Of a DNA stretch of 54,577 nt, positions 11,691-15,166 are shown in pieces. Source of the DNA: Chitinivibrionia bacterium (GTDB taxonomy: Bacteria; Fibrobacterota; Chitinivibrionia; Chitinivibrionales; Chitinivibrionaceae); contig WRAZ01000012.1 in the NCBI GenBank assembly GCA_009779925.1, positions 1 to 54,577 of the forward strand, read 5' to 3'. The translations under genes were made by a program, and so were the position numbers. The notes under the pieces are model-generated. The model was given only the letters and a program-made list of their open reading frames with translations, had not been told where the DNA came from and made no database searches. How positions within the stretch are numbered: position 1 is the first letter of the stretch; every line of letters starts with the position of its first letter.

Positions 11691-11948
11691 ATGAAAGAAC
11701 TTATTGAAGAACTAAAATTGGAAATCGTTGATTTATTCGAACTTTCTGATATTACACCGAATGACATTGATGAAAACGCGCAACTTGTAAACGGCGAATT
11801 GGGTATCGACTCCATCGACACGCTTGAACTAACAATTATGATTGAGAAAAAATACGGCGTAAAAATCCCGAGCCCGCAGGTAGGGCGCGAAGTTTTTGCG
11901 AGCGTCGCAAGTATGGCAAAATACATTTCGGAGAACAGAAATCAATGA
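11691..11948 (+). CDS. Acyl carrier protein (specialised)
   Basis: An 85-residue acyl carrier protein. The phosphopantetheine attachment site is Ser41 in GIDSIDTLEL, and helix 3 and the conserved hydrophobics follow. The N-terminus LIEELKLEIVDLFEL and the GIDS (instead of GADS) motif fit carriers of polyketide- or aryl-polyene-like pathways better than the housekeeping AcpP. AGGAG lies before the ATG. It overlaps the ketosynthase gene by four bases (ATGA), so the two are a dedicated pair. Confidence 0.9.
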   Translation: MKELIEELKLEIVDLFELSDITPNDIDENAQLVNGELGIDSIDTLELTIMIEKKYGVKIPSPQVGREVFASVASMAKYISENRNQ

Positions 11949-13585
11949 AAATTCCGATAATTCGCCACTCGTTTAACTGCGAAAATATTTCCAAACAGAC
12001 GGCGACGGGCGCTCAATCAGGCGATAATTACGGAAAAACCGAAAAATTTGCCGACATTGTCCTTGATAATCTGCTTAAAAATGTAAATTTCGACGAATTT
12101 TCGTCCGCATTGTTTGTAGGAACAACCGTCGGCGGTTTAGACAGAAGCGAAAGCGAATATCTGAAAGCAAAAAAAACAGACGAAATTATCGGTAAATCTT
12201 TTTTGAGACACGAAGCCGGCGAAATGACGAATTTTTTAGCCGAAAAATATAAATTCAAGCAACATTTTACGATTTCCGCCGCTTGTTCTTCAGGACTTCA
12301 CGCAATCGGACTTGCCAAAAAAGCAATCGAAAAAGGCGCCGTCGATTTTGCCGCCGCCATCGGAAGCGACGCCTTATGCGGACTTACCGAAAACGGCTTC
12401 GGCTCGCTTATGCTGATTGATCCGAGCGGAAACGCCCACCCGTTCGACAAAAACAGGGCGGGAATAAAATTAGGCGAGGGAGCGGGCGGCGTTATTTTAT
12501 GCAGTGAAAAATTCGCAAAAACAAACAATCTCAGCCCCGAATTTTACATAATCGGATACGGCTCGTCCTGCGACGCATATCACGCAACCGCGCCAAGTCC
12601 AAACGGAGAAGGTGCGATTTCGGCGATAAATCAGGCGATTAACGAAGCGGGAATTTCGCCCGATAAAATAGACTGGATTTGCTCGCACGGCACAGGAACT
12701 TTAGACAACGATTTGACGGAAACGAATGCTTACAGAGCAGTTTTCGGAGAGAATATTCCGCCGTTTATGTCGTTTAAAGGCGAAATCGGACACACGCTTG
12801 CCGCAAGCGGAGCGATTGAAACCGCAATGGTTTTGAACGCAATGAAAAATGGGATAATTCCACCGTCGGCTGGTTTTACGGAGCAAGATGAGGACATCGG
12901 CGTTTCTCCGAATACCCAAGCAATAGATAAGCAAAGCAAATTCGTGTTAAAAACATCTTTTGGTTTTGGCGGAAACAATTCGGCGGTGGTAATTGAAATG
13001 TGCGACGTCAGGGCGTATTGCATACGCCCTGATGTTTGTACGTTATATTCAGGGCGTATGCAATACGCCCCTACAATTACGCAAACCGTAAAAATAACAA
13101 AAAGCGATTTAGATACAATGAAAAACCTATTGCCATCGTCTCTTGCCAGAAGAGTACCGACCGTATATCAGTTGGCGTATTTGGCGGCGAAATCAGTTAT
13201 CGAAAGTCAGAAAAAAATCTCGGAGGCGACGGTCGCCCAGGCGATAATTTGCGTTTCCGCGCTTGGTTGTTTGGACGAAACTATTTCTTTTTTAGATAAA
13301 TTTGACGAAACGGGTTTAGGCTCGCCTAAAGATTTTGTTTTTTCTACGCACAATTCGCTCGGCGGAATGCTCGCAAAAGAGTTCGGAATTAAAGGCGCAA
13401 ATTTTACAGTATGCGACCGTTCCGTTGAAAGCGCGTTAAAAATCGCCGAGATTTTGGACGAAAAAGTAATATTAATTGTAGAATTTGACGATGCGAACGA
13501 ATTTGCAGAAAAAGTAATGCAAAAATGCGGTAAAACTCGCTCGAATTCGGTAAGTTTTGCTACCGCATTTTTGTATTATAAATAA
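11945..13585 (+). CDS. Beta-ketoacyl-ACP synthase fused to a second ketosynthase-like domain
   Basis: A 546-residue protein. Residues 1-352 are a complete condensing enzyme: Cys114 in AACSSGLHA, His248 in HGTGT, Lys278 and His283 in KGEIGHTLAASGA, and the GFGGNNS turn. Residues about 382-546 resemble the small ketoacyl-synt_2 / chain-length-factor-like domain, with LARRVPTVYQLAYLAAKS and FSTHNSLGGMLAKEFG, and lack a catalytic Cys in the usual place. The linker at about 353-381 is encoded by two copies of a palindromic element (13008-13032 and 13049-13074). The protein probably elongates acyl chains on the upstream ACP. The pathway cannot be named because no ketoreductase, dehydratase or transferase lies nearby. 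Confidence 0.85.
   Translation: MKIPIIRHSFNCENISKQTATGAQSGDNYGKTEKFADIVLDNLLKNVNFDEFSSALFVGTTVGGLDRSESEYLKAKKTDEIIGKSFLRHEAGEMTNFLAEKYKFKQHFTISAACSSGLHAIGLAKKAIEKGAVDFAAAIGSDALCGLTENGFGSLMLIDPSGNAHPFDKNRAGIKLGEGAGGVILCSEKFAKTNNLSPEFYIIGYGSSCDAYHATAPSPNGEGAISAINQAINEAGISPDKIDWICSHGTGTLDNDLTETNAYRAVFGENIPPFMSFKGEIGHTLAASGAIETAMVLNAMKNGIIPPSAGFTEQDEDIGVSPNTQAIDKQSKFVLKTSFGFGGNNSAVVIEMCDVRAYCIRPDVCTLYSGRMQYAPTITQTVKITKSDLDTMKNLLPSSLARRVPTVYQLAYLAAKSVIESQKKISEATVAQAIICVSALGCLDETISFLDKFDETGLGSPKDFVFSTHNSLGGMLAKEFGIKGANFTVCDRSVESALKIAEILDEKVILIVEFDDANEFAEKVMQKCGKTRSNSVSFATAFLYYK
13008..13074. repeat. Paired palindromic elements at the domain junction of the ketosynthase
   Basis: Two inverted copies of one element: GGGCGTATTGCATACGCCC at 13011-13029 (flanked by TCA/TGA) and GGGCGTATGCAATACGCCCC at 13052-13071, then TAC. 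The 22-base spacer is also translated. A closely similar pair lies at 43545-43614, and both encode the peptide AYCIRP. Confidence 0.85.
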
Positions 13586-13746
13586 CAAGAAAAAAGTAAA
13601 CCAAAAGATTTGGAGAAATATTTGTTTTCAGTGAAATGGGGAATTTTTTTCTAAAACTGAATTTTTCATTCGTTTTTTTACTAATCCCTTGCGCACAGTT
13701 TCAGGAATATAGTATTTTGAAAGAAAATAAAGAGGAGGTTTGCCTT

Positions 13747-13935
13747 ATGGAAATCAAAATCACAGACAATGTTTATAGTGAATTTGTGAAAAATTCGCGA
13801 AACATAGAAAATTCTCCTGTGAGAGATGAAAAAAAGGGATTTTGGGACATATTCGACGAAAAAGAATCTGACATTTCCCAAAATACAATGTTTATGAATT
13901 TTCTCGCTAACATAAATACCGAAATTCCTGCATAA
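13747..13935 (+). CDS. Unknown 62-residue protein
   Basis: A small acidic protein (MEIKITDNVYSEFVKN start) with no signal, membrane segment or recognised motif. The start is fixed by AAAGAGGAGG eight bases upstream; an in-frame ATG at 13636 gives a leader with no binding site. It ends nine bases before the next gene, so the two form an operon. A small-plus-larger unknown pair of this kind could be a toxin-antitoxin or immunity module, but nothing in the sequence proves it. Confidence 0.5.
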   Translation: MEIKITDNVYSEFVKNSRNIENSPVRDEKKGFWDIFDEKESDISQNTMFMNFLANINTEIPA

Positions 13936-13944
13936 GGAGATTTG

Positions 13945-14427
13945 ATGAGACGAGAAAATGACCCGTTTGAGTTTCCTGTTTACGAAAACATCTCTCAAAA
14001 AGTTGCTGTTATTACGGCGGCAAAACTCTGTAAAACGATAAACACCGCACCTAAATCTTTATTTCCCGAAAATTTACAATGTAATGCTGTTGTTATGTGT
14101 GAAATTATAAATAAAATTCAAATGCGAAAAGTTTATTTCCGTGTATTCCACGACTGCATTATGGGAGAAATAAACGAGGTTGCATTATATTGTTTTTGGA
14201 TAGTCAAGTTTGTTCCGTTTTATGCTGAAAAACAAAACACATTAGAATTAAATGTAAAAATAGCCGTTTATTTATTATTGAGAACACTCACGTATCACGT
14301 TAACAATAAAAAGTGTGGAACATTACGCATAGACGAAAAAACTCTTAATGAAATTTACTATGCTCTAAAAAACCGTGATTTATCAAAAGAAGCAATTATG
14401 ATACTTGCAAGCGCGTTGGTCAGATAA
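13945..14427 (+). CDS. Unknown 160-residue protein
   Basis: A protein of about 160 residues starting MRRENDPFEFPVYENIS, with alternating hydrophobic helices such as ALYCFWIVKFVPFYAEK and VKIAVYLLLRTLTYHVNN but no clear membrane anchor. AAGGAGA lies four bases before the ATG at 13945, which is preferred to a TTG three bases upstream. It is downstream partner of the 62-residue protein. No family recognised. Both genes are richer in A and T than the ketosynthase before them, which fits acquired DNA. Confidence 0.5.
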   Translation: MRRENDPFEFPVYENISQKVAVITAAKLCKTINTAPKSLFPENLQCNAVVMCEIINKIQMRKVYFRVFHDCIMGEINEVALYCFWIVKFVPFYAEKQNTLELNVKIAVYLLLRTLTYHVNNKKCGTLRIDEKTLNEIYYALKNRDLSKEAIMILASALVR

Positions 14428-14440
14428 TTTTCTTTGTTTT

Positions 14441-15166
14441 ATGTTTATTCTTTACACTATTCTCGGACTATTTTTCGCACTGATGTTCTGCGGAGTTCGG
14501 TTTTTGTCGCTGAATATTTTCGGAAAATCTGTCTGCAAAATTAAAAATGCGCCCCAAAATACGATTTATCTAACTTTCGACGACGGTCCTAGTCCGAATA
14601 TTACGCCGCGCGTTTTGGAATTACTGAAAAAATATAATCAAAAAGCGACTTTTTTTTGCATTGCCGAAAACGCGAAAAAATATCCCGAAATTGTAAGAAA
14701 AATCGTCAAAGACGGGCATACTCTCGGCTCGCACGATTTACACCACCATTGGACAAGTAATTTCAGAATGACAAAAAAAATGACAGAAGAAATTGGCGAA
14801 AGTGTACGAATTTTGGAAGATATTCTAAATACAGTAAGGGCAGGTTTCAAACCTGCCCCTACGAAAATCCGCCTCTATCGTCCGCCTGTCGGGCTTTCAA
14901 ATCCGCATTTGTTTGGGGCGCTCAAAAAACTGGATTTGCAATGCGTTGGTTGGTCGAAATCAACGCGAGACGGGGGAAACCGTATTTTATCGGCTATAAA
15001 AAACATTCCGAATTTGGCAAAGGCGACTGCCGCCCAAGACGGCGATATAATTTTATTGCACGACAACTCCCCTGTTCAAAATGAGGAGTTGTTTTTAGAA
15101 AAGGTTAATGGGTTGTTGGCTAATCTTCAAGAATTCCGGAAGAAATCTCTTCCTCTTTCTGTATAA
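14441..15166 (+). CDS. Polysaccharide deacetylase (NodB homology, CE4)
   Basis: A membrane-anchored deacetylase of N-acetylated glycans, probably peptidoglycan. An N-terminal membrane helix (about residues 3-22) is followed by the NodB motifs: TFDDGPS, the metal-binding SHDLHHH, RPPVG, and LLHDNS near the end. The start at 14441 gives a clean signal-anchor; a TTG at 14405 inside the previous gene is less likely, and no strong binding site is visible for either. Between motifs 2 and 3 a 31-base palindromic element (14832-14862) is translated as TVRAGFKPAPT. The 3' end overlaps the convergent lipoprotein gene by 47 bases. Confidence 0.88.
   Translation: MFILYTILGLFFALMFCGVRFLSLNIFGKSVCKIKNAPQNTIYLTFDDGPSPNITPRVLELLKKYNQKATFFCIAENAKKYPEIVRKIVKDGHTLGSHDLHHHWTSNFRMTKKMTEEIGESVRILEDILNTVRAGFKPAPTKIRLYRPPVGLSNPHLFGALKKLDLQCVGWSKSTRDGGNRILSAIKNIPNLAKATAAQDGDIILLHDNSPVQNEELFLEKVNGLLANLQEFRKKSLPLSV
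14832..14862 (+). repeat. Palindromic element inside the deacetylase gene
   Basis: CAGTAAGGGCAGGTTT with inverted arm AAACCTGCCCCTAC. The whole 31 bases are identical to 41309-41339 inside murE, and both are read in the same frame (VRAGFKPAPT). Confidence 0.92.

Follow-up and report, generated by a model that had tools for sequence, protein, structure and literature searches.

Short palindromic repeats of bacteria are mostly discussed as extragenic sequences or as passive inserts within single genes. GTAG-tagged REP dimers have been described, intragenic ones included (Di Nocera et al., 2013; PMC3733652), and Rickettsia palindromic elements (RPEs) are selfish palindromes residing in frame in protein genes, where they are tolerated as an extra peptide (PMC10969869). 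In REPINs, two inverted REPs form one unit (PMC8049555; PMC8266576). On the protein side, the ketosynthase (KS) ApeO and the chain-length factor (CLF) ApeC, which has half the size of the KS, form a heterodimer that serves aryl polyene synthesis (6QSP, 7F28; PMC8358021). Sequence relatives of both chains are encoded in the window, i.e. the whole 54,577-nt stretch of DNA analysed, which comes from an uncultured member of the Fibrobacterota; ApeO-ApeC consists of two chains, whereas here KS and CLF, both shortened, share one joined reading frame, with a pair of GTAG-type REPs at the joint. Intragenic GTAG REPs and in-frame RPEs are thus already known, and what is new is the joining of two genes; the main text of PMC3733652 contains none of the words fusion, fused and start codon. 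The locus comprises the following features:

11691-11948, forward strand: acyl carrier protein (ACP) gene (PF00550, E 1e-8), its stop overlapping the KS start (ATGA)
11945-13585, forward strand: fused open reading frame (ORF) of KS, palindrome linker and CLF, 546 codons, open throughout
11945-13000, forward strand: ketosynthase (ApeO-like) part, residues 1-352, from Pfam, BLAST and PDB alignments
13007-13074, no strand assigned: head-to-head REP pair of the GTAG type, 68 nt, encoding residues 355-377
13011-13032, forward strand: left arm, the forward REP unit
13049-13070, reverse strand: right arm, the reverse REP unit
13058-13060, forward strand: in-frame ATG within the right arm (CLF reading MQYAPTITQ...)
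13076-13530, forward strand: ApeC-like chain-length factor part, from about residue 378
13515-13578, no strand assigned: terminator-like hairpin with a T-run, overlapping the ORF end
13636-13935 and 13942-14427, forward strand: two small ORFs between CLF and deacetylase
14405-15166, forward strand: polysaccharide deacetylase, 39% identical to the gene following the CLF in the relative G002

The preliminary description had let the condensing domain end at about residue 352, and BLAST and PDB alignments agree (residue 351-352). Pfam recognizes ketoacyl-synt (PF00109) and Ketoacyl-synt_C (PF02801) at residues 53-311, the best NCBIfam model for the KS part, NF006618 (PRK09185), scores below its cutoff, and the catalytic residues Cys114, His248 and His283 are kept. 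The same domain had been called complete, which does not hold: about 36 residues are absent just after MKIPI in comparison with the predicted proteins of 12 of 13 relatives. The second domain, assigned a start at about residue 382, does follow the linker, but the CLF half begins directly after the palindrome and clear homology is found only from about residue 395. Pfam gives a weak match to Ketoacyl-synt_2 there (395-499, E 5e-4, below cutoff), and a profile of the CLF family compared with the PDB ranks ApeC of Acinetobacter (7f28_A, E 2e-6) before 6qsp_B (E 3e-4), in agreement with the suggested resemblance to the CLFs of aryl polyene clusters. The CLF Arg-Arg pair is still present; the C-terminus is shorter than in the CLFs of the relatives (233-269 aa), and homology stops at the terminator-like hairpin. 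As KS and CLF are both thiolase folds, a joint alignment of their rows put the CLF onto the KS half, and read-through rows were used instead. In an AlphaFold model of the fused protein (pTM 0.77), the KS and most of the CLF fold; residues 356-388 have pLDDT values below 50, with 28-29 at the linker core, so that the linker is predicted to be probably disordered. Foldseek searches with this model returned ordinary FabF/KS chains (TM ~0.75 by target length), a result uninformative on the CLF half.

That the palindrome pair forms the linker, as had been proposed, is confirmed. The element, GTCAGGGCGTATTGCATACGCCCTGATGTTTGTACGTTATATTCAGGGCGTATGCAATACGCCCCTAC, is stop-free when translated in the KS frame and yields the 23 residues VRAYCIRPDVCTLYSGRMQYAPT; the linker peptide stretch is VRAYCIRPDVCTLYSGR. 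Of the three forward frames of the element, one contains a stop. The two inverted arms of 22 nt each are 100% complementary and enclose a 16-nt loop, and RNA folding over 141 nt gives one 22-bp hairpin (MFE -50.2 kcal/mol; z -5.4 against shuffles). The right outer tag, CTAC, is intact; the left one reads GTCA, altered from GTAG, and because of this wear the copy at the joint is not fresh.

The 19-nt core of the repeat, GGGCGTATTGCATACGCCC, is matched eight times within the window when up to three mismatches are allowed, with 0 expected from 100 shuffles. Genome-wide, 91 matches (47 + 44) were found at up to two mismatches and none with the reversed control; exact core copies number 79. The repeat occupies 53 places, 37 as pairs and 16 as singles. 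Every pair is arranged forward-then-reverse (head to head) with a spacer of 16-50 nt, and the outer tags are GTAG on the left in 35/37 and CTAC on the right in 37/37. By its tag, its many copies of a short imperfect palindrome and its head-to-head pairs with variable spacers, the repeat is a GTAG-type REP dimer. The REPs of PMC3733652 share the GTAG tail, the imperfect 19-nt palindrome and the pairing with variable spacers. They also share the location at 3' ends of convergent genes, where many copies are found here and the TAG stop is often supplied by the tag, and the occurrence of some pairs in frame in genes, those for DNA repair among them (MutL in the present genome). The differences are that a pair joins two genes and that no RAYT was found in this genome. 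RPEs resemble the repeat in their tolerated in-frame residence; they differ in sequence, in phylum, in the greater length of their units (about 150 bp; PMC10969869) and in the tag, which is CGTC in RPE-type families (PMC3733652). Membership in the RPEs was rejected because of the GTAG tag and the Fibrobacterota relatives. The inverted arrangement corresponds to that of REPINs but, unlike in REPINs with RAYT, a dedicated transposase was not found: PF01797 and NF047646 detected no RAYT/Y1 gene in the draft genome (97.6% complete), and an assignment to RAYT-mobilised REPINs was therefore not made. Y1_Tnp is present in 32 of 41 genomes searched, and the repeat may have been moved by a RAYT-type enzyme that is now lost or unassembled.

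Eleven of the 37 pairs (~30%) lie in frame within ORFs, and the copy between KS and CLF is the only one found to join two genes. The host genes are:

L048, 1331-2833: MurC-type ligase
L049, 1500-3413: MutL
L051: ABC exporter
L058, 2332-3246: class I fumarate hydratase
L066: heptaprenyl diphosphate synthase component I-like protein
L068, 2087-3124: BioB
L073 and its look-alike L085: two FlgD_ig-type proteins
L084, pair at 2635-2722 (G000:C67): another ketosynthase, in its N-terminal part
Window, pair at 43545-43614: protein of 1152 aa (ORF 42070-45528, reverse strand)
Window, pair at 13007-13074: KS-CLF fusion

Some of these genes encode essential enzymes, and the copies amount to a naturally occurring set of 20-30-residue insertions that known enzymes tolerate. 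When BioB, fumarate hydratase and MurC are aligned with their PDB homologues, the element falls in a gap of the latter. In the DNA of a genus mate, MurC lacks the element (86% and 83% identity in two matched protein stretches), and the homologue of the 1152-aa protein is 65% identical. The ketosynthase of L084 is located at a contig end, apart from the ACP-KS-CLF genes.

Both KS and CLF genes are held by 13 of 40 genomes of the order. As the preliminary description had anticipated, relatives carry the two domains as adjacent genes: they are separate in all 13 holders and fused in none, overlapping by 1-8 nt in nine (mostly ATGA) and lying 8-9 nt apart in four. Judged from these relatives, the fusion is derived, and the repeat sits at its exact joint. 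The same fusion with an unrelated linker, which had been named as the finding that would speak for an older fusion, did not turn up among the 13 holders in the 40 genomes. A named genome collection, when scanned, yielded 12 loci, 11 of Fibrobacterota type (Chitinivibrionales, Chitinispirillaceae, Fibrobacter) and one distant in the Neisseriaceae, and no additional close holder. In the genus mate G001 the CLF profile has no match and KS matches are FabF-like only; an empty site was not encountered in any close relative, and the concatenated tree places the window on a very long branch (4.55). The core is absent from G001 and from 38 of 39 further relatives searched, the exception being one single copy in G016, and related GTAGGGGCG stems occur in several relatives. 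Since the repeat is present in the own genome and missing from the genus mate and these 38, the element is younger than the gene pair.

The proposal that an insertion fused the neighbours by removing a stop or start is supported by the separate genes of the relatives. The present flanks, when joined in silico, restore neither the KS stop nor the CLF ATG. Without the element, the KS would continue for 74 codons in the wrong frame and the CLF would fall in another frame, with TTG as the only upstream start. From this result, and because 68 nt is not a multiple of three, frame continuity today depends on the element. The pre-insertion site would have differed from the present flanks by at least one small change, the insertion not having been clean or the site having been altered later.

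The order ACP, KS, CLF, deacetylase is common to the window and G002, where the ACP was assigned from its position and 84-aa size alone. The best NCBIfam model for the ACP of the window, NF006617 (PRK09184), stays below its cutoff. In G002 the deacetylase follows the CLF directly; the two small ORFs between them in the window have no Pfam match and are possibly an inserted small module.

The insertion of a REP pair at the junction of neighbouring KS and CLF genes very probably produced the fusion. The pair belongs to a small, non-autonomous repeat of the GTAG type that has multiplied in this lineage. It would have inserted, presumably through the single-stranded route used by RAYT-type transposases, at the stop/start junction between the ApeO-like and the ApeC-like gene; the insertion itself, rather than a later change, would have made the join. 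As the joining frame meets no stop within these 68 nt, ribosomes would pass from the KS through the palindrome into the CLF, and one protein would be made, a single 546-residue chain with a floppy 23-residue linker encoded by the palindrome. By default, translation is expected to run through into one chain, since no stop precedes the ATG at 13058 and the hairpin encloses this ATG; a certain amount of internal initiation is possible. The locus offers a testable case of a palindromic repeat creating multidomain proteins.

Constraint was measured at positions invariant in seven relatives, each relative being left out in turn as a control. The window breaks 20 of 115 such positions in the KS (17%) and 16 of 43 in the CLF (37%), compared with 0-8% in the relatives. 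The housekeeping controls BioB (7%) and MurC (4%) of the own genome fall inside the range of the relatives, so that the host lineage is not fast overall. We read the locus as weakly constrained or decaying, a place where a fusion could be fixed, and its function as doubtful. About an even chance is given to a decaying remnant, in which the insertion hit two genes that selection had ceased to maintain, and neither the fused protein nor the separate ones perform the original function; such a remnant is compatible with the join having been made by the REP insertion. Besides the broken positions, decay would account for the residues missing from the KS, for the terminator-like hairpin and two extra ORFs in place of the CLF end, and for the absence, next to the ACP, of those genes, a KS among them, that stand before it in the operons of relatives. 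On the other hand, the 546-codon frame is still open, the KS Cys-His-His and CLF Arg-Arg residues are kept, and natural ApeC is itself just one thiolase fold of 204 residues (PMC8358021). Most likely, a selfish insertion was tolerated in a weakly constrained locus rather than selected, and these signs of relaxed constraint reduce the biological importance of the fusion. A working single-chain KS-CLF, with the palindrome as flexible linker tying the halves of the heterodimer to each other and the right arm as a spare start for extra CLF, is improbable; if true, it would show directly that a REP can give rise to a multidomain enzyme that did not exist before.

It is rather unlikely that two proteins are still made, with the right-arm ATG as a new CLF start and the joined frame incidental. 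This ATG shares the CLF frame, and its position corresponds to that of the CLF start codons in relatives, but it lies inside the perfect 22-bp hairpin, inspection shows only AGGG, 3 nt upstream, as an SD-like motif, and the KS frame has no stop, which precludes termination-reinitiation. A fusion older than the repeat, into whose linker the repeat entered later, is very improbable: the mutated left tag indicates some age of the copy, against which stand the lack of any fused homologue among the 13 holders and the collection scan. Still less credence, close to none, is given to an assembly or binning artefact. The genome is an 88-contig draft, and an element present at 53 places is one at which assemblers may join wrong partners; yet the whole pair is shorter than a typical read, and KS, CLF and deacetylase are neighbours in relatives too, an arrangement that joining by chance would not produce. 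The gene order agreeing with G002 on either side of the repeat makes misassembly there unlikely.

Beyond the genomes of the order, 17 viral contigs (L130-L146) contain the exact 23-mer GTAGGGGCGTATTGCATACGCCC, L136 in four copies; Y1_Tnp was not found in these 17 records. The deacetylase (window 14834-14862) and a Mur ligase (41311-41339) each contain, in frame, a single copy of a different REP, GTAAGGGCAGGTTTCAAACCTGCCCCTAC, which encodes VRAGFKPAPT, and units with related CGGGTTT stems are present at other loci, among them L081.
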